A DNA stretch of 64,000 nucleotides from Stropharia rugosoannulata. Taxonomy: Eukaryota; Basidiomycota; Agaricomycetes; Agaricales; Strophariaceae. The position numbers and the translations under genes were made by a program. The DNA lies in the NCBI GenBank assembly GCA_028532985.1, contig JANCIK010000006.1, positions 3,224,001-3,288,000 of the forward strand. The letters are read 5' to 3'. Every line of letters starts with the position of its first letter. Position 1 is the stretch's first letter. The notes under the pieces are model-generated. The model searched no databases, had not been told where the DNA came from, and was given only the letters and a program-made list of their open reading frames with translations. Below are positions 30,836-61,830 of the stretch, in pieces.

Positions 30836-31579
30836 ATGGACCCCGCAGCAGAAAGAATATTTCGCTCGCTCTGTTTTGCTCCAGGAAACCGAAGCCATGC
30901 ATTCGTTGTACCAACAACCATGCGTGAATTTGCGTTGACCATCCGTCACCAACATGAAATCCTATGCCTCGCCATCTACAAGGACATCCGCACCCACAGC
31001 GTACGAGAACTGAACATAATCGACCATGCGCAAGTGGAAGCATACATTCATGATCACCTTGATCACATGGTAAGCCCTCGAACCGTTTCACAACTAACCC
31101 TGCTAATAATCGCGCAGCGCTTATTGCTATGCTCTCGCGTCAACATGCGGCCGTCAAATGAGCGCGAGATTGAGCGCATGATTCCACCTGAGTGCTGTTA
31201 CCTAAGCGCAAGTGCCAGGCATTTACTGGAGATGTTTCCGATGGAGGATCATGAAGGATTAGAGTACTGGTCGACCATACTGCGGTTCATGGCGCTATAT
31301 GCTGAAGACACTGCCGATACAACTAAGGAGAACCAAGTCGACTTCAAAGAATTTAATGAATTGGACAGCACCAGTCGCTGGTGGATACAGTTTTCAAACC
31401 GCGTCAAAGCCGAAGACCCCCTTGAAGAACACCTGCCAGCATTCAGGCCAGCTGCAACACCTGAAGACACATCGGATATCAAAGAAATCCCAGCAGCGAT
31501 CTTTCATCTTCAAACAGCCGTGCCCTCCCAGCGTCCACATGCCAGATTCCGAACATCAGTGCGAGAGATGGATATATAA
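30836..31579 (+). CDS. Element 1 opposite-strand gene 1 (231 aa, unknown)
   Basis: Exons 30836-31069 and 31118-31579 flank a 48-bp GT-AG intron with a CTAAC branch-like site; the intron length is a multiple of three, so the frame is also open through it. The start ATG lies about 40 bp after TATAAAT. The product begins MDPAAERIFRSLCFAPGNRS and contains EILCLAIYKDIRTHSVRELN and a helical, acidic middle (MFPMEDHEGLEYWSTILRFM). I recognise no domain. It is transcribed against gag-pol, so its intron would be preserved through each retrotransposition cycle. Confidence 0.7.
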   Translation: MDPAAERIFRSLCFAPGNRSHAFVVPTTMREFALTIRHQHEILCLAIYKDIRTHSVRELNIIDHAQVEAYIHDHLDHMVSPRTVSQLTLLIIAQRLLLCSRVNMRPSNEREIERMIPPECCYLSASARHLLEMFPMEDHEGLEYWSTILRFMALYAEDTADTTKENQVDFKEFNELDSTSRWWIQFSNRVKAEDPLEEHLPAFRPAATPEDTSDIKEIPAAIFHLQTAVPSQRPHARFRTSVREMDI

Positions 31580-31617
31580 AGCGTAGAGCACTAGTAGATA
31601 GTTCCGTAGCACCCACA

Positions 31618-32106
31618 ATGCAAGCACCTTTGCGTCTATATCTTCAATCCTTAGTGCTTGAGTTGCCCACCGATCTAAACGATTTCTGATCGCGATTTCC
31701 GATCCCATATGTCTTCAAACATTGCCTTGATCCCTTCGTCGACGCCCTAGAATACGAATACACACGAATACTCCAGCTTGACACACTCAACTTGCAGCCT
31801 GTCATAACCGATCTCCGGTCCTTCTTGTTCCTAGGACAAACTATAGCAGTAAGCAACTTCTCCAGGCGACGTGCCGCCCTAACACAATCATAGTATATAG
31901 CATGGCATGGTCGTCAGCATGTAGCCATACATCAATCGCCTAACGAGCAAATCACCATGATCGAATTGAGGGTGTTAATGCGTATGCAATACATGACGAT
32001 GGCATTTGGATACACCGGGCACGAGATTCCCGAAATCAAGGAACGCATGGACGATGTTTTCTTCCAGTATCAGCAGGCATGTGTGTGCAGAGTAGGCGAC
32101 CCATAA
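31618..32106 (+). pseudogene. Element 1 opposite-strand gene 2 (148 codons, one stop)
   Basis: The model is exon 1 at 31618-31848, a 45-bp intron (gtaagc...tcatag), and exon 2 at 31894-32106. A TATATAAAG box lies about 48 bp before the ATG. The product starts MQAPLRLYLQSLVLELPTDL and is interrupted by TGA at 31687-31689 (codon 24). It then reads on as IPYVFKHCLDPFVDALEYEY, ITDLRSFLFLGQTIA and ITMIELRVLMRMQYM. No family is recognised. Its size matches the ~150-aa second gene of element 3. An intact copy of the element would presumably encode a full protein. Confidence 0.6.
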
Positions 32107-32248
32107 CCGACAACCGGCTGTCGGAAAATAGCTAGATAATCTCCAGACAAGTGACATGTAGCCATGCGCCCAGATCGTCCAATGCCAAGTAGCCCAGCGC
32201 CTGAACTCTGTATAAAGTGAAGGCAACTAGACTGTCCAAACACCAGAA

Positions 32249-32759
32249 ATGAGCACCACCACTCGATTCACCATGTTATTGACCACAGCTGTGAAGAATC
32301 CGACGGACATCATGCAGGTCCTAGAGCATGCCATTCGGCCCACCATAGACCAATTGTTATCCGATCAAATGCTATCTCATTCTGCAACAGACACGATGGA
32401 AACACATTGGACACTTGCCGCCCTGTGCCATTACATTGTAAGTTGACCCACTTGTCCTGTTGAAATCAGACCCAATTGACAATACATATTCTGCACAGAA
32501 TGACCATTTTGAAGATTATATATCCACAAAACAATTTCGACCCAGGTCATCGTGGACATTACTCTTGCTTCGCCGGATCATGAGTGAATACGGAGCCGTT
32601 CTTGTAGACAGCGAGCAGGATAAGGCATTAAGCCTACTCAAAGCAGCTGAGAAGCAGTCGCAAGGTTTCCGCCACTGTTACTTGTGCGAGACTGACTTCA
32701 CCATAGATGGAGTGGAGAGATGGAGGGACTGGATTGAAAAACAAGCCAAACAGGCATAG
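32249..32759 (+). CDS. Element 1 opposite-strand gene 3 (149 aa, unknown)
   Basis: Exons 32249-32437 and 32499-32759 are joined by a 61-bp GT-AG intron in phase 0. A TATAAAG box lies at about 32212, 37 bp before the ATG. The product begins MSTTTRFTMLLTTAVKNPTD and has Leu-rich helical segments (SSWTLLLLRRIMSEYGAVLV). It ends with a CYLC motif and a Trp-rich tail (VERWRDWIEKQAKQA). No known domain is recognised. The element 3 gene at 55500-56117 is of similar size and also ends in a CxC motif, which suggests but does not prove homology. Confidence 0.65.
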
Positions 32760-33378
32760 ATACAGCTGCCCATAGATGTAAACCCATTATGATAGATTTC
32801 TGCACGCAAATTTGACGTTGCCATACGATGCCGAAAAAGGCCGAATGAAAAAGGAAGATGCCGAAGTGAAACTGAACAAGCCGCCCAGCCTACACATGCG
32901 CCATTACGGCCGAAAAAGCCAGTTGAAAATCCGCGGTGGCCCAGAGCATTGCCGCAACAACAACCCGATGGCAGACAAAAGAGGTAACACCATTCCCTAA
33001 AGCAGCACGGCATGTCACCATAAAACCGGCGCCATCACGCCGTCATACTTGATTAGGCAACGCCGCTTTCCAGAACATGAGCCACGGTGATTTCCGACCT
33101 AAAAATAGAAAATCCGAACAAGATTTGGGTCAAAGTTTATCGCAGTTCCAGTAAAGGCAGCCCAATTGTCCAACATATAGGACCGAGTCATAGAGAAGAA
33201 TCCACAGCATTCTATCGGTTTCTTCATAGTGCCATCCGCGCATGGTGCCGAACCCATTCAAAGCTAGCCGATTTCCAAAAACGTGCTGAACCGCGGTCCT
33301 AAAAGAATATAAAAACCCTGCCCATTCCACTCATGCTTTCACCATTCTTTCTTCCCTCATCCACCATCTACTCAAAAC
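32760..33378. other. Intergenic part of the element 1 cassette
   Basis: No gene is supported, although a Lys/Arg/Pro-rich open stretch lies at about 32800-33000. A TATA box (GAATATAAAAACC, about 33305) precedes the cysteine-cluster gene by about 75 bp, followed by a C/T-rich leader. Several TTCCGA-type motifs lie here. Confidence 0.5.
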
Positions 33379-34374
33379 ATGCCTCCTTGTCGTACCGCTT
33401 GTCCCGCTTCCACCTACGAAATTGACATGTGCTGGGCCGCTCCGCAAATTCTTGGCCTCACAGAAGGATGGTATGAGTACGACCAAGTAAGTAATTATAA
33501 CATATCGAGTTTCCGTTGCTCTAAAAACATTGATCCAGAGGTGTTCGTGGTGCAAGAGCCACCCCAGCTATATGTGCACTTTGCGATATACCCCACGTTG
33601 GAGCCGAGCATGCACCAACTGCAAGATTGATAAGAAAAACTGCAGCAACAATACCACCGCATGTGTAAGTTCCTTATTATCTTCTTGGTCACTTTCTTGC
33701 TGATGGCACCACCTATAATCTAGAAACAGCAGCCGGGAGATTACTTGACCCGTGCATTAGCTGGCAGCGATTTCGCCTACGACCAACGATCGCGCACAGT
33801 CCACCCAAACCCCGAAGAAGATAGTGATGACGAGAGCGACAGCAACCAGAACAACGAGGCCGAAGAAGCGGACGAACTTGAAGCAAACGATGCAGTCAAC
33901 GAAGTAACCTCCCACGAAGCGCTAGCTAGCCCTATGCAAATTGAGGATGACGGTCCATTTCCTTTCTTTGATGCGACACATGTTGTCGAGTACACGGATT
34001 CCAACATCGTGAACCCAAAGGATGTTGGCGAAGGAACTTCAGGTGAGCAATTACAATTCCCTTTCTTTAACAAGTTTCGGTAACCTTGTTCCACAGGCAT
34101 TACGCGTTCCAGCCCCAGCGCCAGTTCCAGCATCCCTATTGAGGGTTTACCATCGTATGAACCCTATACGCAGTTGGTGCGGGATTTCCGCAAATGGCAA
34201 ACGACCGCAGACCCAGCAAATGGGCTCGAAGAACTAGACGGACTTTGCGAAAGAAACTTGCGACATTACTCTGACATGGAAAATCGACTTCGCGATCTGG
34301 TGGAATTATCGATGGAGCGTATTGAGGAGATCCGTAAAATGTCCGGGGAAATCAACAGATTTCGCAGGAGGTAA
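33379..34374 (+). CDS. Element 1 opposite-strand gene 4: six-cysteine zinc-cluster-like protein (276 aa)
   Basis: Four exons join in frame: 33379-33486, 33539-33664, 33724-34042 and 34097-34374. All introns are GT-AG and 52-59 bp. Residues ~37-78 contain CSWC, then a lone Cys, then CTNCKIDKKNC: C-x2-C-x7-C-x11-C-x2-C-x6-C, plus a further Cys. This resembles the zinc-cluster domains common in Agaricomycete proteins and recalls Zn(II)2Cys6 DNA-binding domains. A very acidic linker follows (EEDSDDESDSNQNNEAEEAD). The C-terminus is a charged, probably coiled-coil helix (NRLRDLVELSMERIEEIRKM) ending in FRRR. The gene is convergent with pol, stopping 260 bp from the pol stop. A DNA-binding regulator is a reasonable inference. 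Confidence 0.8.
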
Positions 34375-34633
34375 AAGGGGATTTATATGTATTTCTTCTT
34401 GTTGTATTTCCTTTCGCCCTTCGTCGGAAACCATTTTGTCATTGCATCTTGTAGTCAATAAATTGTCTTGGTCATGCATATTTTAGTTTGAAAGCAATAA
34501 TTTCATAATCTTGTAAAAACAGAAACATAACCTAAAAGAAAAAGAGTTTATTTAACAAATGAGAAGAAATGAACTTGAAACTGTTGAAGCTCCATTAAGA
34601 AATATAAGTTGTGTAAGCGTTGTCGGAAACTTG

Positions 34634-37600
34634 TTATTCATCATCAGGCACCACTTGCGAGTCCTCAGGTACCTCTTCGCGTACCATGCCTTCAATTAGA
34701 TCCTTGGGTTGAGACAATAGTTCCCATGGTATTTCAAGCGGTTCTCTTGATATATAAGGTATTAGGCGATATGCGGCGAATCTCTTGTAGGATACGGCTC
34801 CACTGAGTTCAGCACAGATGTAAGACCCTCCTTTCGTTCGTCGTAACACCATTAGAGGCCCAAAGTATCGCGGTTTTGTTTTCCGATCAAGTGATTTTTC
34901 AACTGGTGAATTTCTGACTAGGACCAAAGTACCTGGTGCGAAATCTTGTAACACGATGCGATGCTTATTGTACTGCTCAAAATAACGAGCTTGCCTCAGC
35001 CGTGCTTGCTCCACTTTGTCCTTGACCCTTTCAAGATCTTCCGGTCGCTTCTGCAGCATTATAGCTCTTCGTGCTATTAGCTCTTCTTCGGAAATCATAT
35101 CAACTTGATCGGGAAACATGAAGGTCGCTTCTGTGATGTCAAATGGGAATAATGGTTCCACTCCGTGCGCGATATAGTAGGGAGTATAACCAGTTGATTT
35201 TTGTACCGTAACACGTTCAGCCCATAAAACAAATCAGAGAATTAGTGGCCATATTGATAAGTCGCCTTCACAAGTCTTGACTATTGCTTCCCTAACATCG
35301 AGATGTCGTTTTTCAATCAAGCCGTTTGCCTGCGAATTATATCCCGAAATTCTGATGTGGTAGATTCCATATTTTTCCGCCAAATAGTTCACGGCTTTAA
35401 CCCAAGGTGTACCATTGTCTGTCACGATAATAGCCATAGCTCCCCATCGCGACATAACATACAACAGAAATTCTCCTATAACTGTATGGTTTTCCGACGC
35501 TACAGCCAGAGCTTCAGGCATTCCCGAAAGTGAACATCGTAGATGAAGACAGAGATGTTTCCCCCCTTTTCCTTTGGGCATAAAGAAAGTATCCGCGTGA
35601 ACCTTGACAAATAGCGACAATGGACGAGCTACCGTTGGCGGAATGAGGTTCTTTACCCTTGACTGTCGCTGACATATATCGCAAGTCTTCAAGTACCATG
35701 TAAGATCATTACTGATGTTAGGCCACCAAAAACACTTCGTGAGCCTATTCCACACAGTGAAATAAGACTTATGTCCTAAGTTATTGTGTACTTCTTGGAG
35801 TATCCGAAGCCTATCTTCTTGTTGTACCACTTGTTTATGTTCACCATCGTCGGACCTTTTCCATAGCTTTCCGTCCAGTATGAAGAATTGCCTTACTTTC
35901 TTGAGGAAGCGGTCGTACTCCTTTCTTGTGCGAATCCATGCGGGTCTTTCGGGGTTGCCTAGAAATTCTTTGACCTTCTTTAATTCCTCATCCATGTCAG
36001 CCCCTCTGTCAGAAACTGGTAACTTAAGCGTTGTAGTAATTTCCGAACGGTGAGGTACCGATTTAGCTGCAATAAGTACCATAGCCTTGTAAGACAATAA
36101 TGATCCTGGTATTTTCTTCTGTACCATGGACATGTGAGTGAATTTCCAATTGTCATTTTTGTTTAAGACCCAGATTCCGAAGCCGCATGCCCTGTTGATC
36201 CAGTCTTCTACTTCTTCTTCGGAATCTTCTTTAGGATCTAATTCTGATTGTTTCCTTCTTGACAGACCGTCTGGTGAATGTGATTTTCCAGGGACGTGTT
36301 CTAGCTTGAAGTCAAACAAAAGTATGGCGGCTATCCAGCGATTTATCGTAGCATTAGGTTGTATATCGGGGTTGTTTAACATTCCCTTGAGGTAACTCGC
36401 ATCAGTCCTGACTATCAAGTTTTCCACTCCAACCAGGTATATCCGATACGCTCTAAGGCTGCGAAATAGGCCATATAACTCGATCTTGGCTTGTGAGTAT
36501 CTTGATTCTCTTTCGTTCCAAGTTATAGAACCAAACCGCGCAGGATGTTCCTTTCCGTCTTCTTTAACTTGAGATAAAATAAAACCCACGGCTATGTTGC
36601 TTGAGTCCACCTCCATTATTATCTGTCCTTCGGATTCATAGTCCAATGCCGTTAATGCTGGAGACTGAATTAAGAGACGCTTTAAACTGTCCATTGCTTC
36701 TTGTTCTCTTTGTCCCCATGTGAATTCAACGTCCTTCTTTGTTAGTTCAGTTAACGGTCTTGAATGCATTGCATAATCTTTTATAAAGATACGCATTACA
36801 CCCAATGTTCCCAAGAATGAGCGAACTTCTGTCAAATTTTCACAAGGTTTCCAATCCCTGATAACTCTGACTTTTGACTCATCAACCGTCCTTCCTTGGA
36901 TGCTGCACATATGGCCAACAACATTAATTCTTGGTACAGCCAAAAAGGATTTCGAGGCATTGAAGGTTCCTCCAGCGTGCTGTATCCTTTGAATAATGCG
37001 ATGCACATTGTTCAAGTGTTCCCAGACAAATCTTCTGATACCAGGGTTTTCGGAAATCGTTTCATAGACCCCATTCTCATCTTGATAATAAGATCGTGGT
37101 CCTTTGACCGGTACATCGTCCACAAAAGGTGCCGTAAATTCAGGAATCTCAGGCTCCAAGATAAATGACACATCTCCCTGTTGGACTTGAACCGAATTTG
37201 TAAATCCTTGTGGTAGACAGGTCAATCTCAGGTTTCCGATAGGCGAAGAGAACGTAGTATAATCTCTTGAATCTTGATGAAGAACCCGATGGTCAAATCC
37301 TACAAACAAATCAAACATGGCATAGATAGTTCTTCCACCGAAAGATTCCGCATAAAGTTCTACAACTGGCGGTAGAGCTGAGTCTTTTATGGTTACTGCA
37401 TTCAACCTTCTCAGGTCATGCACTACCTGTATTGCTCCGCTTTTCTTTGGCACATATAGGATCCTGGACCGATACAGTGAACTAGAAGGTTCATACACTT
37501 TGCTTGCGACTTTATCTTGAAAAATTCTCGTGACTTCTTTAGCGATGCCTGGAGGTATCGGTATCGGTTTTTCCGCCCATGGTTCATGTGGTACAACGGG

Positions 37601-38204
37601 TATCTTTAGTGGTTCAAAATAGTCTTCTCTGAAGGCACCTTTCTCCATCTCATTCCAGGCGAATCCCATCTCATGTTCTTTAATGATCCATTGAACTAGA
37701 CGAGCTTCATCCGGTGTCAAGAAGCCATCTTCATTTATGTTCCAGGCGTCCATTCGTTCTTTAGTATAGCGTATTCCTGGTTCGATATGGTCTACTTTAA
37801 AAGGTAACGGTTTCATATTAGCCAGAGGATCCGATGGAATTCTTCTAATAACACGATATTCTTCGGGAAGTGTAGTTGACACAGGAAACGTCCGTCTTGC
37901 CACAGGTTTATATTTATTCCTGGCTTTTATTATTAGTGCTCTTTGTTGAAAAGAGTAAGCATAAGTCTTCTGTAAACATTGGCCGATAAATCTAGCCGAA
38001 ACTTCAAAATTAAAATTAGTAGGGTATATTTCATGGTATGATGATCCTCTTTCATCATCTATTCTTGCCGCAAATAAGGGAGTTATAAATCGTCCAAATG
38101 ATAGTGCTGAAGGAATATCCTTCTCTTGCTGTTCATGTCGTTTCTTGTGCACTATATTTAACATGAACATCTTTCCCGACCATTTTAATTCAGTCGGGAT
38201 TCTG
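34634..38204 (-). pseudogene. pol: Element 1 pol: reverse transcriptase, RNase H, integrase (one nonsense codon)
   Basis: The frame is open from upstream of ATG 38170 down to 35237, where a TGA (35236-35234) interrupts it. The same frame then resumes (FVLWAERVTVQKSTGYTPYY) to a stop at 34634. Domains are RT with KKSGAIQVVHDLRRLNAVT (~residue 245) and active-site FVDD (~349); RNase H with MEVDSSN, IELYGL and TDASYLKGM; integrase with HHCC zinc site HNNLGH...CDIC, then the DDE residues HADTFFM, VTDNGTPW and GLIEKRHLD; and a C-terminal barrel-like region LVRNSPVEKSL...RYFGPLMVLRR. Pol is in the -1 frame relative to gag-protease, and the overlap contains T-TTT-C at 38205-38209, as in the other two elements. 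No chromodomain was seen. Confidence 0.9.
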
Positions 38205-40290
38205 GAAAATCCGCTAACTCTTTTTCGGAAACCTTATTCCTGGGCTGAGTTGGAATAGTAACCACCTTTTGCGTGTTGGGGCAAGTCAAAGTAATTTCCT
38301 GGTCGCCATTTGTATAATCCCTAGTAGTGCATCCAGTATACACAAAGAACGGTCGTCCTATCAGAACTTGAAAAGGGGCTTTATCCACGACATGTACTTG
38401 AAAATAGAGTTCAAGGCTTCCAATAGTGATTTTAAGGTTTTTGCACATTCCATCCGTTTGCGACAATTCCGTGTTGGCAGACTCCATATATATTTTCCTT
38501 TCTGGGTTTATATTGTGAGACAGTTTTCTCCATATGCGCTTGTCCATTGCCATGATTTCCGATCCTTGGTCCAAGACACATTCCGCCGTGAATTCACCGT
38601 TTAGCAACGCGGGTATCACCCTGAGTTTCATAAGGGGAGAAGCCGTCAAAAGGACTCTATCTGATGGCCCATTTTCCGAAGCAAATTGTAGCACATAAGA
38701 CCCTTCATTTTCTTCGCCATGGACATAGCTAACCGTCGGAATTCTCTTTGGTGTAGTTGTTTCCTTGAAATATTTCCGAAGTTCTCCAGAAATAGCCAAC
38801 AATTCTCTTTGAGAAATAGTAATTTCTGCATCCAAAGATTTTGATATGACTTTCTTAAGAAGATCCAGATTTTCCGCTCCTGAGGTGAATCTGTACTGGG
38901 GTCCTTTAGCCAGTTCAAATCTTACATGTGCTTCTGGTATTGTCTTTTCCGATTTCCTTTCGGAAATCACGACTTCAGGGACTTTTTCATAAGCAGATGA
39001 GTTTTTGCCTGGTCCAGGTTTGTCTTGGGGCGAAGACCTTGTCTTCAGATAAACCTCACCGATTTCTTCGTCGACTTCTTCGAGTTTACTGGAAGAATTA
39101 AACAAGGTTTCAGCCGTAGTACAGGAAAACATCATCGTGGTAGCTGGCGACAGGTGAGGGGGTACATCTCGAGCACGTTGCAGTTTGAGGATGTTTTCAA
39201 TCCTTTCTTTTATTGTTCCAGTTCCATTGATCCAGTCGCCGTTAGCCATTGTGAATCTACCATTCGGTCCTTGTTTGATGATTCCCTTGTTTATAAATTC
39301 ATCCGGCAAGTTGCAAGACCTCATAATATGATTAATGTCTCCGCAAAACAAGCAACCAGGGGCGTAGCGCGGAGTGGAACGATACATAGGTCTTTCTTGC
39401 GTCGGAAAAGATGTATTAGGTTGGCCTTGCATAAACATCTTTATTGATCCTAATTCCGATGTCATTTTCCTTAGCATGAGCTCAAGAGCAGTTTCTTCGG
39501 TTTTCGTCCATTCACGAGGTGTGTCTTCAAGGCCATACCTGTCAGAATAAGTGTTATCTTGAAGAACATATCAAGCCGCTCGATTAACTTGAAGATAATC
39601 ATGAACCAGGCCCGGTTTCCGCTTCGGGTCTTCAGCTGTTAATTGAGTAAGAACCTTCGCCCTGAATTCTTTTGGAAGACCTAGAACATAGTTTCTGTTG
39701 ATGTCGTCTCTTGATGATAATTGCTCCTTCTCCAGATAAGTAGCTATAATCATGAATTCACAATGATATTCTGCTAGAAGTTCTTGATTATCCATGGGTT
39801 TGCTCGAAAACTTCTGTATTAATTTATGCAGATCGTTGACTGAGTATTTGTAGAGCGAATCCAACCCAGGGAAATATTCCAGTAATATTTGTTTATTCTC
39901 CTTCCAGGATTTGTTTTCATCTAGAATATTCTTCCATGTTTCGTGTTATCGGTAATCCACATACCACAGGGTTTTTGTAATCCGTGTGATATCCGATGTG
40001 TCTCCCCTGTCTTTGCATAATTCCTCGATGTCCTCTAGGTATCGATGTAAAGGAGTAGTGGGTCCTGCTTGACTTTGGGCGCCACGGTTTGAGCTTCAAA
40101 AGGGTTTGCTTCAATTCCTTGATCCATTTCCGATATATGGCTGAGTACTGAAGATATTTGGCTTCCTGATGGTGTCGGTCTTTTCCTTCTTCTCTTGATG
40201 GGCGCTTCAGGAGGTTGTAGGGGTATAGCAAATTCTGCAGCAAGTTGACGAGTTATCCGACGGTCTGGAACAGACGGATCTATTGTGAAC
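38185..40290 (-). pseudogene. gag: Element 1 gag-protease (disrupted)
   Basis: From the 5' side the frame reads a basic segment (PEAPIKRRRKRP), capsid-like sequence with ETWKNILDENKSWKENKQIL and YSVNDLHKLIQKF, a CCHC zinc knuckle CLFCGDINHIMRSC, and an aspartic protease with active site VLDQGSEIM and the IGRPFF flap region. Gag and protease share one frame here, unlike elements 2 and 3. Breaks are a frameshift near 40040, TAA at 39948-39946 and TGA at 39573-39571. No ATG is evident at the 5' end; the open frame continues through the primer-binding site into the LTR. The protease ends at TAA 38185. Confidence 0.85.
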
Positions 40291-40299
40291 TGTAGACCC

Positions 40300-40317: not shown

Positions 40318-41282
40318 TGTGAGGTGCGAAGTTGGGTTGGACTGGTCTGAAAAGCCTGTCTCTATAGTTCACAATGTGCGAAGGCAACGTGTGTACAACG
40401 ATAGCACGTTGAAAAGGTTTTACTTGTTTTATAACAAGGAGCTTCCAGTGTACAAGGTTTAAACAACGGTTTCCGAAGCGAGCTGGTATGATGTGTGTAG
40501 GTAGAATTTAACCCTGAAGGAAGCTGGAGAAGTACAGAGATATTCTACTCCTTAAATACCCGTCTGGTTGCCATGCCCAGATCGTACCATATACCTCCAC
40601 GAAGATCCGACCGCCCATGCTGACTTTATCTCATCGGAACCCATGCTGCACTACAGCATGCTTCATATCTTGGCCACAAATATCCTTATCTTCGGAAACC
40701 AAGCCCAAGCACAAGAGATCTTCCTGCGGCCGGATCAACTCCATGTTCTCCCCTAAACATACATCTCCTCCAACCCTCTCTCCACACCTATGTCCCTTGT
40801 GTTTGTATCGAGATTCTTCTGCTTTCTGCTACCACACGCTTGCATGTCGTCGGAAACCCTTGTATATCGTCGGAATCCGTCACCATTTTTGTCCCAGGAT
40901 GTATGTATGAGTATTTCCATGTGATTGACTTCCTTGTGGGTCCATAGTTACATCAGATTGTTAATATTGATCTGATGTTGTCGGCATCAGAAGTCCAATA
41001 TTGCTCTGATGCTGTTGTCTTTCTTGATCTGCCATTGAGTTGTAATAACATCTTGAGTCTTTCTTGTGCTTGTCTTCTTGTTTCATCATGTACATATTTC
41101 ATATCTTCGAATAAACTTGCATCTTCATATCTCAGTCTTCATATTTCGTGCTTCTTCTTGTTCTTTCAGTTTCCGATAGTAGTTTCCGATCGTTATGGCG
41201 GATATGTCGCTTCTTGTGTATCTATGTTGTAAACCTTATGGTTATTCTTGTTTTCACGAGGGGCCAGCCCCAGCCCCTCACA
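40318..41282 (-). repeat. 5' LTR of element 1
   Basis: It is the 965-bp partner of 29785-30749, with the same TGTGAGG/CCTCACA termini. Differences are mainly transitions scattered along the length (for example GCGAAGTTGG versus GCGTAGTTGG near the start). Confidence 0.95.
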
Positions 41283-42121
41283 CCGCTGAGCTCTCCAAAT
41301 GACCCGGTGGCCAGAAGCTATCCAAAACTTCTATGATTCACAATACACTTCACAGTAAAGACCCTAACAAAAGCTAAACACAGCCCGCTGACAGTCTGGG
41401 ACGGAGCCCAACACACAGATCTAGTGGGTAGACAATTGCTTGATTTCCGTAGTTACAATTACAAGTTTATATAGACGCGCGTTGTGTACTAATTTAGGTG
41501 GAGAGTAAATACTAGCAATGCCGGACCAAAGGTCCGCTGAGCGCATGTGCCTCCGCTGGGCGCCTTGATGGCTACTCCGCTGAGCGCAACCTGATCCTGT
41601 TGTGTTACCAGCCTCCGTCGCGAGCCACTGTTAAACTCCGCTGGGCGGTTCCGTCTTGGTCATCGAGGCCTAGTTACTGCTGCCAAAGTTCCCCAGCGGA
41701 GTCCGTGCTGTGTGCATTGTTTATTCCCTCGGGCATCACACGCTCCAGCGCGCGCGCCACGGTCACCTGACGAGTGGACTTAGGCAAATTTCGCCTTCGT
41801 GATGTGTTCCGCTGAGCCCCTTTGAGACACCGTCTACACACAGTCCTGCTCGTCGCCTTTGATATTTTCCGCTCAGCTGTACTCCTGCCTTCCGCTGGGA
41901 CGACAGTAACCGTTATGTACTCCGCTGACAACTATTCCGGGTACTCCAACTGTGTACTTATGGCTCGTACAGTCCGCTGAACCCCACACAATCGTCTGCT
42001 GAGCACATGCGTGATAGATTCATGATACACGCGCTGAGCGCTGAGACGGCTGACCAGGCTAGTCACCGCTCCGCTGTGCCCTTGCACTTCAGCCCAAACC
42101 GCCCGCTGTGGCCACTTACAG
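41283..42121. repeat. CCGCTGAGCG-rich terminal region of element 2 (probable 3' LTR remnant)
   Basis: About fifteen copies of a TCCGCTGAGCGCA-like motif (also CCGCTGGGCG, CCGCTGACA and CGCTGAGCGC) are scattered through 840 bp. Related GCTGAGCGCA and GCGC words recur in the element 2 coding region. The placement matches the motif-dense LTR of element 3. I could not find a second copy, a polypurine tract or LTR termini, so calling it an LTR is inference. Confidence 0.5.
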
Positions 42122-47314: not shown

Positions 47315-47459
47315 AAATCCTGATCTGCGTTAGGGTTTTCCGTTGTGCCAGGGTCCTGCAATTTAGGTTCGCGCTGCACAATCTTGGGACCACACCCTCG
47401 GTTATAGGTGGGTACTACCAGTTTGCGCTGTGTGTTGGGATCGGTGAGCGTAAGCTCAA

Positions 47460-48519
47460 CATCAGGAAAACCACTTTTTTGAAAAGAGACTTTTTGAGAC
47501 ATCTATGTGTCTCTTGGGAAATTTACTGTCTTTTTGAGACTTTAATATGTCTTTTGGTGAATTTTTTGTCTTTTTTATACTTTTAAAGGTCTCCTAGAGA
47601 CTTTAGGGAAATATGTAATTCTTCCAATGTCTTTTTAGGTCTTTTTATGTCTTTTAAAGTCTTTCAATTTTTATAAGTATTTAAATGTATTGATGTAATT
47701 GTATAAATCTTTTTATGTCTCTAAAAGATTTTTAAAATGTCTCATAAAGTGTATTAAAAAGCTACAAAAAGACTCAAAAAGACATTTAAAGACATAAGAA
47801 ACTAGGAAAAAATTGACTTATGAATAGCTATTGTCAACTATTACTTGTAATCTACATTATAAATCTCATATAAAATACATCTGAACATGACTAAATTCAA
47901 TGATTTGTGATGTAACAAATTAATGTAGTCTAGAGCATTATCATCATATTTGACCTGCAGTGAGTCTATATACACAGGCACATGGTGTAGGGGGAAGTAT
48001 GCTGGTTTTAAGTCATGCATGAAGCTGTTGGTTCAATTCCTGGCAAATGCAAATTATTTCCACAACATAAGTTCCCCTTCCCATTGTACCCAAGTTAATG
48101 TGATGGTTTATTTGCCATTGTATGTTTATGTAAGGTGCTGACTAATATAGTTACTTCATGACAAATCTTAAGTACATTTAAATATACCTAATTACCTACT
48201 TACAAATACAAATACACTTACTAATACAATCTAATCTATGTAGTAGTGATTTGGCTAAGATGAGGTCATGTTTTTAATGTTTTTATAAAGCAAAAATGTA
48301 ACATTAAAAGACATTTAGAGACATCAAGAGACATTATGGACACATAAAAAGACAAAAAAGAGACTCCTAGAGACATAAAAAAGTCTTTAAAAGTTTGGTA
48401 CCTGGAGACTTTGCTTTAAAAGTCTCCTAGAGACCCAGGTCTCCTGGGGTCTTTTTAAGTCTTTTTAAGTCTTTTTAAAAAATTAAAAAACTTTTTTCAA
48501 AAAAGTCTTTTTCCTGATG
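47460..48519. mobile_element. 1,060-bp TIR element inserted in the element 2 protease
   Basis: Both ends start CATCAGGAAAA and continue CTTTTTTGAAAA, a 26-bp inverted repeat with two mismatches in the three-base middle. An AA dinucleotide flanks each side (47458-47459 and 48520-48521), consistent with a 2-bp target duplication. The outer 250-300 bp on each side is built of short AGAC/GTCT words in T-rich and A-rich runs that are loosely self-complementary. The centre is AT-rich and holds a tRNA-like segment. No protein is encoded. Confidence 0.8.
47976..48052 (+). ncRNA. tRNA-like / SINE-like segment with Pol III A and B boxes
   Basis: TGGTGTAGGGGG (47983-47994) fits the A-box consensus TRGYNNARNNGG, and GGTTCAATTCC (48030-48040) fits the B-box consensus GGTTCRANYCC. 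The spacing of about 35 nt is normal for tRNA-type promoters. An anticodon-like loop TTTTAAG lies between them, but the acceptor stem does not pair, so this is not a functional tRNA. It is most likely a tRNA-derived SINE head or a decayed tRNA carried inside the TIR element. Confidence 0.55.
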
Positions 48520-49631
48520 AACCGTTCCATCGCCGCGCGTCTTTACATTGCTCTCCGTGAGGATCTCGAACGGCCTGCCCAAGAGCACCTCGTAAGCCGC
48601 TGCGCTGATGACATGCACTTGTAAGTACACCGTCAGTCCGTTAAACACGAACGGTACGTTGCGCGCTAATCCCTTAGTGGATTCCACCTGCTTATTCGCG
48701 CTCTGCATCCGTATAGTGAAATCCGGATCCCAGCTAAGTCCTAAGCGCTCAGCAGTGTCCTGTGCCATTGACACAATCTGCGACCCACTGTCGAGCAATG
48801 TCTCCGCATGTCCCTTGCCGTTGATGAGTGGAAATACCGCCTTCAGATGGTGCGATTCGCGCGCCACAATAAGTCCCTTAGGCTTTTCGCCCGGCTGCAG
48901 AGTCGAGATGTACTGTTCATACGGGTCTTCCATGATAATGGTCCCCGGTTGCAGTCTGCTGCGCTCATCTGAGCAAGTAAGGAAAGTGGCCACTGGTAGC
49001 TCATCCATCTGCATAAACTCCTCTTCTTCCTCTTCTTCTGCTAACTGCGCAATAGCCTCGTCTACTTCGCGCTCTTCCTCATCATAGTCTAATTGTAGTA
49101 CGTGCATCGTATTCAGATCCAATGGTACCTTTCTCGGTACTATGCGCTCAACGAACTTTCTTCTGAAACCTGCAGTCAATATGCCTAACAACTGGCCCTG
49201 CGTGATCTCGATCTTCTGATTTTCTAAGTGTTTGAGGACTGCATCAGCCTGCGCTTCATCTTCGATAGGTGCGCGCAGCTTATAGGCTGGCTTCCTCTTT
49301 TCTACTACAGGTATGGGTTCTTCCCTTACTTTAGGCTTTACTTTCTCTGGTACGCGCAGTGGAGGTACCATTACATATGGCACTGCTGCTGGTCGTGCGC
49401 TAGGCCCCGCCTTGGTAGGAACCTCAAATACTACTTTCTTCTTTACTGGTGCGCTGTGTGCACCTTGCTCCTCCACTACTTCTTGCAACTCATCTTCCTC
49501 ATCATCACTCGCGTCCTCAACTGATGCTCTGGGTATATTTCTGATTGGTAACTTCTTATTTGCGCCCTCCGGGTTCTTGGGTTTATCAGAGCCGCTACGC
49601 ATAACTCTGCCCGCGTTTCCCTTCATCAGAC

Positions 49632-50503
49632 TCAATCGAAACCCTGACTGAGCGCAGCATCACGTTTGGCTTTCATCGTCGCTATTAACTGATGCTGTTC
49701 CTCTATCACCTCTTCAGGCGTCTTCGCCGATGCGCGCTCCTTCAGGAACACCTTCTTACTTTCCAGCTCTTGCTGGAGTGCACGTATCTGCTCCTCATAG
49801 GTCTCGTCCAAGGAACTGGCCGGCTGGTACATCTGCGAATATACCATGCTAGGAGGCATACCCATGTATGAGGGATGGACAGGTGCCATATACGCTTGCT
49901 GCGCGGGCTGCCCGTTCTTCTTATGCCATTCGTCGACGCGCTCTTTGATCGCGCACGAAGGGTCCCAAGGTATTGATGACCCGTCAGGTAGCTGTAAGCG
50001 CCCCGCTTCAGTAATGACAATCCTCCCCGCCGCCAAGTCCTGCTGCCGTACGATGCACTCAGCCACCACATGTCCCGTCTGCTTGCAGTAGAAGCAGTGA
50101 GGCTCCGGGCGTTGTTGGTATTGGAAGGGCCTAGGTGGTGGTCCACCAAAACTCGGTGCGCTCATGGGCATCATGGGGGCTACTGGTTGCACAGGCACCA
50201 ACATCGGTGCGGCGCGCGCAGCCATGACATTGCGGATAATGTCCTCCAACTCTTTCTTACTCGACTCCTTCGACTTCGCCACTGTCTTCTCTACTAACGA
50301 CAAGGTATCCTTGAAGGAGGCAACGAACCCTTTTAGGTCCTCAATCTCTCCGCGCAGCGAACCAACATCCGCGGCCTCAGTCTTGATGGCGGGCACCGGC
50401 ATAAGTCCATCAGTGCTCTCGCGCCCTAGGCTCAGCGTTGAAGGACCTTGTTTGGGTCTGGTCAAGTGCTCAGTGATGGCCCGTTTGTATGTCCTGCTAG
50501 AAA
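49632..50503 (-). CDS. gag: Element 2 gag, C-terminal part (truncated by element 3 insertion)
   Basis: The frame is open from the junction at 50503 (ISSRTYKRAITEHLTRP) to the stop at 49632. It contains a coiled-coil region (EIEDLKGFVASFKDTLSLVE), a Pro/Met-rich stretch, and the CCHC zinc knuckle CFYCKQTGHVVAEC. The conserved post-knuckle segment INTEAGRLQLPDGSSIPWD-like (VITEAGRLQLPDGSSIPWD in fact) corresponds to element 3's VDVYGKVKLADGRPVPWG. There is no start codon because the N-terminal half is separated by element 3. The upstream ISSRTYKRAI corresponds to GSRTTYKSLT in element 3 gag, supporting a break in mid-gene. Confidence 0.85.
49638..49644 (-). promoter_or_regulatory. -1 frameshift heptamer GGGTTTC at element 2 gag/protease overlap
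   Basis: On the sense strand gag ends CAG GGT TTC GAT TGA. The zero-frame G-GGT-TTC fits the X-XXY-YYZ slippery rule and lies one codon before the gag stop. Slipping back one base leads directly into the protease frame (RLSLMKGNAGRV). Element 3 has AAATTTC at the same junction. Confidence 0.75.
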
Positions 50504-50780
50504 TGATCTAACACAACACAACCAACAACCACAACAAAAACACACAACCAATCTCAAACAAATGCTTCTTTAATGCGAAGTCGAGGGTCTATGTACAAAA
50601 GAAAGACACAGTTGTCTTTTATAATATAAGCCGGGTAAACGTTTTCTTAACACAAAGACTCAGCCCGAGGGGCGTGGTGGTGTGGTGTGATAAGTGTAGT
50701 TTTGTGTGCGTATGACGCGAGGTGCTCGAATGAGACTTAGTCTGACACGACGATCAGAAAGAGAACTGAAAACTGTTTAA

Positions 50781-52271: not shown

Positions 52272-52307
52272 TCTCCCCCAAACCATAACTCGACTGTCCT
52301 CAGTCGA
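52272..52307 (-). promoter_or_regulatory. Polypurine tract plus TCCT-loop hairpin, element 3
   Basis: The plus strand reads TCTCCCCCAAACCA next to the LTR, giving a sense-strand TGGTTTGGGGGAGA polypurine tract. Then comes a perfect 7-bp hairpin TCGACTG-TCCT-CAGTCGA at 52290-52307. The stem differs from that of element 1 but the length, loop and position are the same. Confidence 0.75.
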
Positions 52308-52925: not shown

Positions 52926-54537
52926 ATGGCCGCGCCTTCCCCCTCGCCCGCTTTCTCCTCTCGTACTGTCTACAGCGAGTTCTTCGAGGAGCTCGCGGAA
53001 GCGCTCGAACGTTCCCACATCCCAGCGGACACGGTCGACTTTGCACAGCCCTTTCGCCGCCTCCGCGATGCGCTGCTCGATAACCCCTTCTTGAATGATG
53101 TCTTTGTCGCCCGGCAACTCCTGAAGTCTATCATTCCGCCCCTTTTCCGTGACGCCCGGAACGTTTTACTGGCGCTAAATGGGGGTTCTTTCCAGAGAAT
53201 AGGAGATGCCGGCACTATGCTGCCTGAATTTCGACATCTCTTTCGATGGGTTATCCTTCTGGTTCACTCAATTCCCTCAGAGATTCGGCAGGAGCTGGAC
53301 TTGGATTGGCTCGTTCTCCCCCGGGTAAGTACTTTACTCCCGTTCAGTTTTGTTTCTACGGTTTCTTATGGATATTTTTAGATTGACTACGGACCCGTCT
53401 GTCCGGTATCTGTACTCTGGCAACTCGAATTCCCCTCTCCTGTGGTGGACCCTGCCCTTGTTCAGGGGTTTGATGGGGACTTTCCCCACCTTTTTGAAGG
53501 TCTCCTGGATGGTTTTGGCCCCGGCTTAATAAATTTGGACGGGTATCGCCCTGCCGATGATGCCCCCTTGTCCCCACCTACACCACAAGTGGCTGGGGTA
53601 GACGTAGTGCCTTCGGGCCCTTCCACCCCTACAACAGGTTCGTTATTTTATTTTATTTTTATTTTTATCTTTCCTTTATCTCATTTGCTTTTAGCACCGT
53701 CTCGTCTCTCGGCCCCTTCCCCCGGGCCTGTGCATCCTTTCACTGGGAGGCCGCGGCCATCTGTCTCTCGCGCGGTCCCCGTCCCAACCGGTCAGGCAGA
53801 CGGGTCCGTTTTCACTCCACCGCCCATTCGTCCCATACGCAGGAATACGGCACGCGAGGGCCCCGCTTACGCGCACTATGCGCAACAACACCGTTGGGAG
53901 GCAACGCCTCTGGAATTCAAGGATCCCCGCCCGCCTCAGCTGATAAACCGGGCGCAAGCTGAGGGGCTTCGGGCCCAACATAATATTCGGGTGAGTTTCT
54001 TTAGCCCGGTTATTTTCTTCTGGCTCTCAAGTCCTCTTTTTCTTTAGTTACCAACCCCCTGTGCTGCCTGCCTGCTTCTTGGTCTGGAGGACCGTTGTGA
54101 GGTTCAGGAAGGTGAAGACCGGTGCACCCCATGTATAGTGCGCAAGTCTACTACCTTCCCTTGCACTTTCATGGCTTCCCCGGACGAGCGGGCCCTTTTG
54201 TCTGAGCGATGCTACTTTCTGGGTGGCACTTCCCTTGCTGGTAAGCTACGTTTCTTCTGACTCTCTTCTTACTTTTCTAATTTATTACTCTCTTTTTCCA
54301 GCTATCCAAGACGACTTCTCTAGCCTGCAACATCAGGCGGAGCAATACATCGTTCAGAGTCGACTAGCCGAGGCCAGCTTCGCCCGGGCCGAATTCTATC
54401 GCGACCGGATCTACGCCCGTTTGGGCCTGCTCCTCGAGTCGGACTCGCCCGACGCCATCTATTCTACACACGCTTCGATGGACCGCGCGTCTTTTGACGC
54501 CTTGGTGGAGGCTACGCGGGCTTCTGACGGGTTTTAG
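52926..54537 (+). CDS. Element 3 opposite-strand gene A: six-cysteine zinc-cluster-like protein (459 aa)
   Basis: Five exons join in frame: 52926-53324, 53382-53637, 53695-53990, 54048-54240 and 54302-54537, with 57-61-bp GT-AG introns. The N-terminus (MAAPSPSPAF...) is helical and Leu/Arg-rich (VARQLLKSIIPPLFRDARNV), and the middle is Pro-rich. Exon 4 begins PTPCAACLLLGLEDRC and continues CTPCIVRKSTTFPC: C-x2-C-x9-C-x9-C-x2-C-x9-C, the same six-Cys layout as element 1 gene 4. A charged helical C-terminus follows (AEASFARAEFYRDRIYARLG). A one-base shift at the stop would open another ~30 acidic residues ending in DDSGWTV, so the present end may be a truncation. A DNA-binding role is inferred from the Cys cluster. 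Confidence 0.78.
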
Positions 54538-54888
54538 CTGAGTCCGAGGCTGAAGGTTCCGAAGAGGTGGACCCGGCTCCTCCAGCTGAGTCTGAAATGG
54601 AGGTCGACGACTCAGGGTGGACTGTCTGAGGGGTCTTTTTGTACTGTTTTGTCTACTTCTTTTTGTGTAATGTTCTCTCTTGTGTACTTCTTTAGTAGGA
54701 GTACAAATTTTATATTCTTTTCTTTCTTGATAACTTCTTAAGTGTGAATCTGAGTCAATGATTTATTCTTTCAAGTTCTTTCCTTTAAGAATTTTGTTAC
54801 AAGTTTTCTGCCCGGTTATTTGTCCACATTTGGGACTCCGTCTTTTGATCCCTCTTTTAAACTGAGTCTTTTTGACCCTTGTTCACTC

Positions 54889-55449
54889 ATGGACAACTTG
54901 GAACTCTCTAATACCTTGCAGGCGATTAACCGTGCTAAACAGTCCAACCCGGTTAGCTTAGATGACATCTATTGGCTTGCCGTTGGTTGTATGTCTGAGA
55001 CAGTGAGCGGTCTGTTTTTATACCCGGTTATTTGGTCTGACTCTCCCTTTTCGTCTAGTTGGACCTCCTGGATCATTTGCCCGGCATATCCACTGGTCTA
55101 CAATTTCGCAACCAGGTCGTACAACTACTCAAGGAGTATCATTTGTGTCTTTATTACGCGGTCAATCCCCCTTCGTACCCATCAGTCTATTATACCCGGT
55201 TGACTTCTGTCGTTCGCAATTGGTATGACTGGGACGCAGAGGAGTTTGCCCGTCGTCTCGCAAGGGTATGTCTGTTCTTGGCTTCTAGATTGTTTGCCAA
55301 CAGCCCGGTTAATTTGTCTTTCTCAGCACATTCGCTCTGAGGCTTGCTTCCGCTCGTATCATGTGAACGTGCTGCCTTACGATTTTACCCGTTACCATCC
55401 GTCAGGTAGTAGTGATCCCGGGGATATGGACTTAGATCTGTACATATAA
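54889..55449 (+). CDS. Element 3 opposite-strand gene 2 (147 aa, unknown)
   Basis: Exons 54889-55002, 55059-55265 and 55327-55449 join in frame with GT-AG introns of 56 and 61 bp. The product begins MDNLELSNTLQAINRAKQSN and has Leu-rich helices (LDLLDHLPGISTGLQ, VVQLLKEYHLCLYYAV). An aromatic-rich stretch and an acidic C-terminus (SDPGDMDLDLYI) follow. The introns themselves carry the RCCCGGTTA motif. No domain is recognised. It corresponds in size and position to the ~148-codon genes of element 1. Confidence 0.7.
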
Positions 55450-55499
55450 AATCCTGTATTTTTCTACCGGTTTTTACTTGTCTCTTTGGCCGTCTATCC

Positions 55500-56117
55500 A
55501 TGTCTCCTCCTCGCAGGCCACGTTCCCCTCGGGTTCGCTTTTCCTCAGACATTATTGCCTCTCGTCTGGCCGATGCTATGGCTGATATTAACCAGCATTG
55601 CAATCGTAACGTCATAGACTTAGCAGGTCTTGCTCGTCTTTTAGCCCGGGCCTCTTGTTTAATGGTCAGTCACCTTTCTTATTTCTAAGCTTTAAGTGGC
55701 CTGATTTTGTCGTAGTCCCGTCTATTTGACGCTGTCGAGTCCTCTACTCCTACGGACGCCAATTATCCCCTTGCTTTCAACTCGATAACCCGCTATCTTC
55801 GAGCATTGTTGCGGCATTATCACCTTCTACGCTATTTCTTGCGTGATAGGGCGTATTTTTATCCCGCCAACTATCATCGTTTTGCGCGTGTCGGGGTTAT
55901 GCTTGGCTTTCTCTTTGATCGCGATACCCGCTTAATTGAGGCTGAGGTTCGGGCTTATTATTCTCTCTCAGTCTCTCTGCTTACTCTCTCGTGTTTTTAG
56001 GACTGGTATTCTGAACGGTGCAAGTATCCGCTAGACCGGCGCGTCACTTCTCGTGCGTTGACTTTGGAGGAGCAGAACCCATTTTGCCCGTGTGGCTTCT
56101 TAGTACACACATTGTAG
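55500..56117 (+). CDS. Element 3 opposite-strand gene 3 (170 aa, unknown)
   Basis: Exons 55500-55664, 55716-55946 and 56001-56117 join in frame with GT-AG introns of 51 and 54 bp. It begins MSPPRRPRSPRVRFSSDIIA (basic), then has helices rich in Leu, Arg and Tyr (LLRHYHLLRYFLRDRAYFYP). It ends with a Cys motif (NPFCPCGFLVHTL). The start lies 50 bp after the previous stop, close to ACATATAAAATCC, which may be its TATA box. No family is recognised. Confidence 0.7.
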
Positions 56118-56489
56118 ATCATTAATTTGTTGATGTCAATCGTGATCTGCCCGCTTAATTAAAGATTTAGCGTTTTTGGCTTGGCGTTGGATTTGTTTAT
56201 GTGTATAGGCGAATTAAACCGGTCTAAGTTTTAGCCCGCTTATTTCTCCTCTCCCCCAAACCAAAAATCGAGTGTCCCACTCGACCCGAGTGTGCCCGTG
56301 TCATGGCCTAGAATTCTTGTGCGTCCGCCCTGAATTAACCCGGATAAATGTGTACCCATCTGGCCCTCCCTGCCTTCTTTAATGCGAGGAACTTAGCGGA
56401 CTCTGGCGTGGTGAGAAATGTATAAAAGGTCGCGCTTTGCAACGTCGAAGAACAGACCAACATTACTTGTCCGCGTCCTCCGTCGCAAC
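56118..56489. other. Intergenic stretch before element 3 gene B
   Basis: It contains an internal copy of the polypurine tract and hairpin (56250-56284, listed separately), several CCCGCTTA/ACCCGGATAA motifs, and a good TATA box (TGTATAAAAGG, about 56418) some 70 bp before the gene B start. Confidence 0.6.
56250..56284 (-). promoter_or_regulatory. Internal copy of the polypurine tract plus hairpin, element 3
   Basis: TCTCCCCCAAACCA is repeated exactly as at 52272-52285, again followed after four bases by a 7-bp hairpin, here TCGAGTG-TCC-CACTCGA (56268-56284). It lies 4 kb inside the element and just before the gene B promoter. It could be a central polypurine tract, a shared promoter element, or the scar of a recombination that joined two 3' ends. 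Confidence 0.65.
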
Positions 56490-57960
56490 ATGGCTACTTT
56501 TGACATCTCTTCTACCCTTGAACGCGTTCAAGCGGGTCTCGCCCAATACAAGTCTACCCGGCCGTTATTGGGTACTGTCGATGCTATTACGCCCAAGCTC
56601 TTAGCCGACCAGTTAGTAGCCCAGGTTATGCTGATGGTAAGCAAAATCCCAGCGACCCAAAATAACCCATCACATCAACTCTTATTGTAGCTCCCGTGGG
56701 CGAGGATATGTCGTCCCAACTCCAACATACCGCTGCGTGCGATGCGTTGTTATTCTGCCGGGCAGAGTTACTTCACATTCACGCGGCTGGTGCAGCGTCT
56801 GGTTACGAACATCCTTCGGAGTTCCACAAGCTTAGCTCGCTTACTATCCATATCCACAATCATCGCAAAGGTCAATCCCTCAAAGCTCAGCAGCAAAAGG
56901 TACGTGCAGAAGCTGAAGCCGCTCTGCGCGACCAAGCGAAGCAGTCCCAGCGCGAGGTGAGCCAGTCGTATCTCAACTTTCATTATACCGGGCTAATTTT
57001 ACCCGGTACAGACCCGTCATCGCAAGGTCAAATCCAAGGCGACCGTGGAGGACAGCGACGAAGAAATGGAGCCGGTTATCATCCTGGATGGTAATCCCCG
57101 TTCTCTCAAGGATCTATGCATGCCCCAGCCACCCCGGTATGTTGTTGGAATTTTTAGCCCGGTAAAACACTTGTCTCACGGGTCTGGTTACTTAGGACGC
57201 GATGGTCGTTGACGACGCCACTGCTACTCCTACTCAAGCGTCTGTACGTGCTGAGGCGAAAGCTGCTAAGAACGCTCCTCCGACGCCTGGAACTCCTTCC
57301 TCTGTAGGTAGTGGCACCCTTCGATCTTAGGTGACTTACTAACTGCGCTTCTCTACCCGGTTCAGCGTGAACGCAAGGCTGAGGTGCGCTATTTCCCTCT
57401 GGCACAGATTAGCGGCCTCAACACTGATACCCCGGCTTACCGTAAGGTCACCCGTGTTACCAGCAAGTCTGATCGTCCGTCCTCCAAGCGCCCTCGTTCT
57501 TCCATGACGCCGCGCACTGTAGCAGGCGCTCCCGCTGGTGAAGGTACTGCGTATTTCCACTGTTCCCAATGGACACCTCGTTGACCCATTTTTGCAAAAC
57601 AGGCGGCCTCGATGGACCCGTCGAGCTAGACGAATGCCTTATGCGGGTACGCGTCCTTCAATCCCAGGAGAAGCTCGCTATCTCATCCGTCCGTGGCGCA
57701 CAAAAGGAAAAGGAGCTCTTACTTGCCCAACTCGAAGAACACCACTATCACTTGCGCTACAACCTTCGTATGCGCGACTTGGTAGTCGAAAGCCTCCAGA
57801 AGTGGCAGGCCAAGCATGAACCCGTATGTCATTCCCTCACAATACCTATCTTTTACAATTAACCCGTCATGACTAGATGCGCCTCTTCTCTTCGCTTGAC
57901 CAGCAGGTCCACAGCGAGATCGTCCGTGCCCAGTATCTACGTAGTCAAAAGCTCTTATAG
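56490..57960 (+). pseudogene. Element 3 opposite-strand gene B: coiled-coil protein, probably decayed
   Basis: Recognisable exons are 56490-56636, 56691-56956, 57012 to about 57135, 57196-57303, 57366-57543, 57603-57823 and 57877-57960, with GT-AG borders. It begins MATFDISSTLERVQAGLAQY. A helical His/Gln/Ala-rich exon, an acidic stretch (TVEDSDEEMEPVIILDG), a basic patch (SDRPSSKRPRSS) and a long C-terminal coiled-coil (KEKELLLAQLEEHHYHLRYN) follow. Phases do not fit at exon 1/2 (unless a GC donor is used) or at exon 3/4, so one-base lesions are likely. The arrangement parallels the element 2 gene at 42122-43234. It ends 112 bp from the convergent pol stop. Confidence 0.65.
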
Positions 57961-61829: not shown

Positions 61830-61830
61830 G

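Follow-up and report, generated by a model that had tools for sequence, protein, structure and literature searches.

Why should a retrotransposon carry a set of intron-bearing genes on the strand opposite its own gag-pol? The question is raised by a 64,000-nt stretch of the genome of the basidiomycete Stropharia rugosoannulata (assembly GCA_028532985.1, contig JANCIK010000006.1, positions 3,224,001 to 3,288,000), hereafter the window, in which three elements have gag-pol on the minus strand and, between pol and the side of the 3' long terminal repeat (LTR), predicted genes on the plus strand. Judged by sequence, the elements are three related Ty3/gypsy LTR retrotransposon families with pol proteins that are 39% to 56% identical. 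The original prediction of spliced genes opposite gag-pol in all three stands with its coordinates, 30836-34374 in element 1 and 52926-57960 in element 3, and so does the single 5'-partial gene of element 2, of which the window holds the 3' part at 42147-43234 and which belongs to a set of four in another copy. These cassette genes are coding, have a spliced structure and are fixed in the elements, and they are under purifying selection while the elements are active.

Spliced antisense cassettes in three families

A search of the 48-Mb assembly (20 contigs) with the element 1 cassette gave 35 matches, 23 of which, the window included, cover at least 84% of it, and the alignment set comprises the window plus 20 of the 22 other large matches (n = 21). 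The cassette lies between the 3' LTR and pol on the strand opposite gag-pol and consists of four plus-strand genes. The first, g1 (30836-31579; exons 30836-31069 and 31118-31579), encodes 231 amino acids and is intact in 15 of the 21 copies; g2 (31618-32106; exons 31618-31848 and 31894-32106) is intact in 17; g3 (32249-32759; exons 32249-32437 and 32499-32759) encodes 149 amino acids and is intact in 18; and g4 (33379-34374) has four exons, namely 33379-33486, 33539-33664 with a cysteine motif, 33724-34042, and 34097-34374 for a C-terminal part that is helical by eye, and is intact in 15. All four frames are intact together in 8 of 21 copies. The six introns measure 48, 45, 61, 52, 59 and 54 nt and keep their GT-AG borders in every copy (126/126); those of g4 are widely diverged among copies, yet their splice signals are conserved.

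Element 2 is represented in the window by a 5'-truncated plus-strand g4 (42147-43234; exons 42147-42334, 42395-42673, 42720-42909 and 42963-43234), and 39 other listed copies of this element align from 42147-42149 onward (40 of 208 candidates scored). A full copy outside the window has four antisense genes in open frames with 4, 1, 1 and 4 introns (10). Across seven copies, the five introns of g3 and g4 are bounded by GT-AG in 35 of 35 cells, and the frame of g3 is broken in two copies and that of g4 in none.

The element 3 cassette, also on the plus strand, comprises g1 (52926-54628; exons 52926-53324, 53382-53637, 53695-53990, 54048-54240 with the cysteine motif, and 54302-54628), g2 (54889-55449; exons 54889-55002, 55059-55265 and 55327-55449; 147 amino acids), g3 (55500-56117; exons 55500-55664, 55716-55946 and 56001-56117; 170 amino acids) and g4 (56490-57960; exons 56490-56636, 56691-56956, 57012-57136, 57196-57303, 57366-57543, 57603-57823 and 57877-57960). 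Their 4, 2, 2 and 6 introns are 51 to 62 nt long and all 14 are of the GT-AG type in the window. The splice sites of g2 to g4 are conserved in 63 of 70 cells; of the seven misses, one is a lost acceptor, and in six the last donor of g4 is shifted by one base, which leaves the last exon of this gene uncertain. In a comparison with the copies L012 and L014, the cysteine-rich gene has a stretch within its N-terminal half (53158-53990) that is far more divergent than the remaining cassette, with 65% to 75% protein identity between copies there and 94% to 96% DNA identity elsewhere.

Further copies from the same genome, which the original prediction had proposed to seek, were found and compared for all three families (21 of element 1, 7 of element 2 and six others of element 3). 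Intact versions of the genes exist among the copies elsewhere; the window itself qualifies the prediction, since g2 of element 1 is disrupted by a premature stop, g1 of element 3 by an internal deletion near 54533 and its g4 by a frameshift, and element 2 is truncated on the 5' side. With regard to the survival of the introns, we infer by the sound logic already put forward in that prediction that antisense orientation would shield them from removal in the genomic RNA, and that the genes could therefore retain introns through retrotransposition.

Separate TATA-like boxes had been reported for most element 1 genes, and indeed 11 of the 12 genes of the three cassettes have such a hexamer or heptamer within 120 nt upstream of the start, element 3 g2 being the exception, as compared with rates of 15% among 297 control ATGs and 10% among positions in the cassettes; the pattern was defined after inspection, and probabilities drawn from these rates are optimistic. 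A self-contained gene block with its own promoters and no detected similarity to other genes might be a separate parasite that sits inside the retrotransposon and is carried by it, for instance what is left of a virus or a transposon. We regard this as highly improbable, given that all 23 large matches to the element 1 cassette have a pol match next to them, that the lone distant match is a 111-nt fragment, and that different genes occupy the same site in the three families, not one repeated insert.

Spliced genes with their own promoters also resemble cellular genes, and reverse orientation would let introns survive capture, as would be the case for transduced host genes that ride along without a role for the element. 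This reading, too, appears quite improbable: the cassette sequence adjoins the element 1 pol end at 26 of 26 listed places (by eye; 40 of 58 candidates scored), selection is seen in all three families, and a protein search with g1 and g4 of element 1 found no match in the genome outside element 1 places and no host parent gene. Neither of these two proteins has a homologue at E <= 0.01 among 5.8 billion public protein predictions, a database that does include relatives of the elements, as pol of element 3 shows, but whose gene calls may miss spliced genes.

The cassettes were described at the outset as shared by related elements. They do share their position, the number of genes and a large part of the exon layout, but no relationship between genes was detected across families: when the 12 proteins were compared by profile in all 66 pairs, within and between families (most profiles shallow), no significant similarity emerged, with probabilities of at most 1.4%. 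A gene homology between elements 2 and 3 that had been suggested by eye is likewise unsupported by sequence statistics, the layout alone being in agreement. The cysteine-rich gene is g4 in element 1 and g1 in elements 2 and 3; its intron phases are 0,1,0,1 in elements 2 and 3 and 0,0,1 in element 1, and the cysteine motif starts directly after the third intron in the former and directly after the first, phase-0, intron in the latter. In the seven small genes, all nine introns are in phase 0. Common descent of the three cassettes is plausible; we read them either as an old shared module with proteins evolving too fast for sequence tests or as the outcome of repeated recruitment.

Purifying selection and the diversity of g4

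Instead of the random stops and a ratio of nonsynonymous to synonymous divergence (dN/dS) near 1 that had been set beforehand as part of the refuting outcome, mean pairwise dN/dS in element 1 is 0.11 for g1, 0.19 for g2, 0.23 for g3 and 0.13 for g4, next to 0.13 for pol (136 pairs among 17 copies; L033, L041, L043 and L044, with truncated pol or diverged g4, were left out). The genes of the other two families are also constrained. In element 2, means are 0.11 for g3 and 0.13 for g4 (7 copies; g1 and g2 were read in one copy), and in element 3, for which the comparison covers g2 to g4 because g1 is unalignable across copies, dN is below dS in every pair that differs among the six other copies. 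Here dN/dS is mostly below 0.35, with values of 0.4 to 0.7 for some g2 pairs that have few changes.

A second measure uses variants in at least two of 19 element 1 copies (L043 and L044 left out) and weights transitions 4 to 1. The ratio of nonsynonymous to synonymous shared variants relative to neutral is 0.12, 0.27, 0.35 and 0.26 for g1 to g4, as compared with 0.74, 0.62, 0.44 and 0.49 for variants seen once, a difference that is expected if selection acts during element activity and ends after insertion. The two other forward frames score 0.8 to 3.4 on the shared-variant measure; one reverse frame, which has the same codon third positions, is also low (0.20 to 0.42) but there the stop changes number 3, 3, 5 and 19 for g1 to g4, whereas the annotated frames show 0, 0, 0 and 1. 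Among the single-copy substitutions in 30836-34374, 116 of 275 are CpG transitions (19 copies), as would be expected from cytosine methylation of silenced copies.

Antisense regulation has been discussed for plant elements (excerpts of PMC7264820), and in principle antisense transcription, acting through double-stranded RNA, could itself be the function of the cassettes with the reading frames being incidental. In view of dN/dS, the frame control and splice conservation we consider this extremely improbable; chance open reading frames, and antisense RNA as the sole function, were rejected on the basis of dN/dS together with the frame control.

Within element 1, g4 stands out as the centre of a divergence island (33280-34480, with approximate edges near the promoter and the gene end) in which copies fall into types A to F, assigned by eye from identity values; type C includes L027, which has a dS of 0.30 from the other C copies. 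Over 80 nt, identity in the island is 0.41 to 0.95 between types (with a minimum of 0.13 across a length-variable linker) and 0.94 to 0.99 within types (profile without L029, L033 and L041). Outside g4, most 250-nt steps of element 1 are 88% to 100% identical to the window, and between types g4 drops to 58% to 94%; low identity at the far right for L033, L041, L043 and L044 reflects missing pol. Between types, g4 reaches a dS of 0.51 to 2.3 with some pairs saturated, as compared with 0.04 to 0.16, near 0.08, for pol (45 pairs among ten chosen copies). Despite this divergence its dN/dS is near 0.13, and exons 1 and 2 have a mean dN of 0.036 at a dS of 0.98 (17 copies). The gene thus exists as six old types on the young backbone of element 1, which is newly observed here.

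The copies L027 and L030 are near-identical in g1 (dS 0.04) and unlike in g4 (dS 0.58), and pieces therefore seem to have been exchanged between element 1 copies. When copies are grouped by g4 type (L033 and the window left out), the distance in g4 itself is 0.034 within and 0.216 between types, and that in the short spacer between g4 and pol is 0.012 and 0.065. The g2-g3 region, the g3-g4 spacer and the pol end are about two- to threefold farther apart between types than within. No type signal is seen in the g1 leader (0.037 within, 0.039 between) and the U3 region of the LTR is at 0.026 within and 0.029 between types (40 and 131 pairs, 19 copies). We therefore reject a repressor with a U3 target that co-varies by g4 type, and since U3 does not track the g4 types, a host- or competitor-facing partner is favoured over a simple repressor-operator pair.

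Candidate functions and known antisense genes

Our preferred explanation, in which we have moderate confidence, is that these elements carry an accessory module of spliced antisense genes for trans-acting regulation of their own expression or for counter-defence. Four intron-bearing genes antisense to gag-pol form a permanent module between pol and the polypurine tract, nearly all of them with a TATA-like promoter of their own. The spliced antisense mRNAs would be translated into trans-acting proteins, of which the cysteine-rich one is predicted to bind nucleic acid; together with the smaller proteins it may control the element's own expression or blunt host silencing, as has been suggested for the antisense proteins of Grande and Retand. 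We infer expression, nuclear action, and regulation or counter-defence, and the plant precedents (the nuclear product of Grande with its separate promoter, and TRP28 of Retand) are in line with this.

Seven cysteines of the element 1 g4 cysteine exon are invariant in nine aligned copies. The cysteine spacing reads X2, X7, X11, X2 and X6 in element 1, and elements 2 and 3 deviate more by eye. The fungal Zn2Cys6 pattern reads C-X2-C-X6-C-X5-12-C-X2-C-X6-8-C; a classic Zn2Cys6 regulator was rejected, as the spacing differs and Zn_clus is absent among the Pfam matches.

Several observations weigh against the regulatory module that we prefer. Nucleic-acid binding and regulation are drawn from the motif and from precedent only; the cysteine spacing is unlike that of known families, and a phmmer search of the cysteine region against the PDB had no significant match. 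No Pfam family reaches its curated cut-off for any of the 12 proteins, the sub-threshold matches (DUF7079, E 0.026; Transposase_24, E 0.035; Stm1_N, E 2) being taken as chance. AlphaFold models were uninformative, with a mean predicted local distance difference test score (pLDDT) of 35.6 for g1, of which the open 48-nt intron was translated along with the exons, and 57.8 for the cysteine exon. Motifs resembling nuclear signals are not above shuffled sequences where present (p 0.06 to 0.33), and the helical character is based on a crude heptad count. Finally, a roughly twofold difference between types extends to the g4 flanks, and exchange is therefore not sharply limited to a single gene.

Alternatively, the cassettes could encode particle, envelope-like or transfer proteins for replication, not regulators. 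Their site between pol and the 3' LTR is indeed the env position, and their dN/dS is near that of pol, as in core genes. At the same time, they lie on the antisense strand, and their TATA-like boxes and introns are unlike known env expression; none of the 12 proteins has a membrane-span-like hydrophobic stretch (19-residue mean at most 1.32), and one of the genes is far more type-diverse than pol. Altogether this makes a role in replication unlikely, and an envelope-like extra gene in particular was rejected in view of antisense orientation and the lack of a span-like stretch.

Returning to the regulatory module, a more specific version would see the cassette as an element-borne recognition system in which old, functionally distinct types of the cysteine-rich protein are exchanged among near-identical retrotransposons and set copy specificity. 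We put this forward as a tentative idea that is rather doubtful as it stands. If true, specificity would serve to evade silencing by the host or to exclude rival elements, and g4 would be an idiomorph-like gene in an LTR retrotransposon.

Genes opposite gag-pol were initially thought to be known from a few plant LTR elements. The plant cases are real, but that statement omits the fungal gene brtn of Boty (PMC7264820) and the general occurrence of such genes in Retand (PMC11963269), all papers cited here being represented by excerpts. Boty of Botrytis cinerea (BcGypsy1), likewise a Ty3/gypsy element of a fungus, has an extra gene on the antisense strand, brtn (PMC7264820, PMC8365987), and to this extent it is like the elements described here; the excerpts name this single gene and mention no intron, whereas our cassettes are multi-gene and spliced. 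In plant Retand elements, the region between pol and the 3' LTR spans 2.9 to 6.6 kb and always includes antisense coding sequence, in some elements as more than one region; 104 antisense open reading frames (ORFs) are reported, and DNA binding is suspected (PMC11963269). The long region with antisense coding, sometimes as several ORFs, is shared with our elements. Unlike these, Retand is from plants and has the TRP28 domain (PF04195), which is absent among the matches of our 12 proteins, and the excerpted text never uses the word "intron".

In the plant elements Grande (gene23), RIRE2 and PvRetro13, the interval from pol to the 3' LTR holds an antisense gene; gene23 of maize Grande is driven by a promoter of its own, and its product is nuclear (PMC7264820). 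Compared by description only, these share the location of our cassettes, but the excerpts name single genes where we find four per cassette. Another antisense gene for comparison is HBZ of human T-cell leukaemia virus type 1 (HTLV-1), which is spliced. It is a regulatory gene with a nuclear product (PMC11963269) and a promoter in the LTR (PMC7264820). The likeness lies in being an antisense regulatory gene, with no relation claimed, and HBZ is a single gene with an LTR promoter as opposed to the four-gene cassettes here.

No cassette of several spliced antisense genes in a fungal element was found in the open-access literature, of which excerpts were covered, and an earlier report may exist in subscription papers; a Laccaria transposon survey uses neither the word "antisense" nor "opposite". 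Antisense genes as described in these sources are single (Boty, Grande) or come as several ORFs without mention of introns (Retand). The present results indicate that retrotransposons like those described here can harbour an entire set of spliced antisense genes with their own TATA-like boxes and maintain it under selection. One genome with many copies that differ in g4 type on a common backbone offers a natural test of the role of antisense genes, which excerpts of plant reviews call unknown. For annotation, we caution that such cassette genes could be mistaken for orphan genes of the host.

Gag-pol, neighbouring DNA and signal motifs

Element 1, on the minus strand, is bounded by a 3' LTR at 29785-30749 (965 nt, TGTG...CACA) and a 5' LTR at 40318-41282 (965 nt), which are identical at 941 of 965 positions, have TG..CA ends and, in this one element for which LTRs were tested, come with a C-tract adjoining the 3' LTR. 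Its gag-pol (about 34634-40250) has broken frames and comprises a DUF4100-like part, reverse transcriptase (RT), RNase H and an H2C2 integrase. The minus-strand gag-pol of element 2 spans 43361-50507, and that of element 3 spans 58072-63999 with the 5' LTR beyond the window end. In all three, Pfam places RNase H before the H2C2 integrase, and an RT match was obtained in element 1 alone, below the cut-off (E 0.0018). By BLASTP, pol of element 2 is 56% identical to that of element 3, and element 1 pol has 48% to 50% identity to either in the RT part and 39% to 40% in the integrase part.

In the window copy of element 1, a 5-bp target site duplication is absent (flanks TCCGG and CCGCT), and the flanks at 29775-29784 and 41283-41292 are unmatched. 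Because of the missing duplication and because element 2 is cut at 42147, the DNA around elements 1 and 2 has probably been rearranged. The gag-pol of element 2 is interrupted between protease and RT by an A+T-rich insert of about 1 kb (47480-48515) with inverted ends by eye. Near 48030 it holds a GGTTCAATTCC box that resembles a tRNA B box, and ARAGORN and Rfam (gathering scores) gave no match in the insert.

The clade of element 3 pol looks common in metagenomes: the protein (58075-61833) has 1649 relatives at E <= 1e-10 among the 5.8 billion public predictions, and nearly all of the 120 listed are on contigs shorter than 20 kb. The viral and prokaryote contigs scanned with pol held no relatives.

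A recurrent motif accompanies the cassettes, consisting of a C-tract, a gap of 9 to 12 nt and a 7-bp palindrome around a loop of TCC, TCCT or TCCC, with stem sequences that vary. At the 3' LTR of element 1, the polypurine-tract complement TCTCCCCCC is followed by the palindrome ACCACCC-TCCT-GGGTGGT (30750-30788); the motif adjoins the LTR, and on the genomic RNA a hairpin would therefore directly precede the polypurine tract. Element 3 has a C-tract with TCGACTG-TCCT-CAGTCGA on its 3' LTR side (52272-52307) and an internal one with TCGAGTG-TCC-CACTCGA between g3 and g4 (56243-56284). These three are on the plus strand of the window, with none on the minus strand, and one more precedes g2 in an element 2 copy (L018+L045). 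In 200 first-order simulations of the window such motifs did not occur, a result that is optimistic for a motif that was, like the TATA pattern, defined after inspection. By eye, all 21 aligned copies of element 1 have an identical palindrome, and the C-tract varies in five of them; five of the six other element 3 copies retain the internal palindrome. The C-tract and palindrome might serve as a hairpin for plus-strand priming or as a site for a protein.

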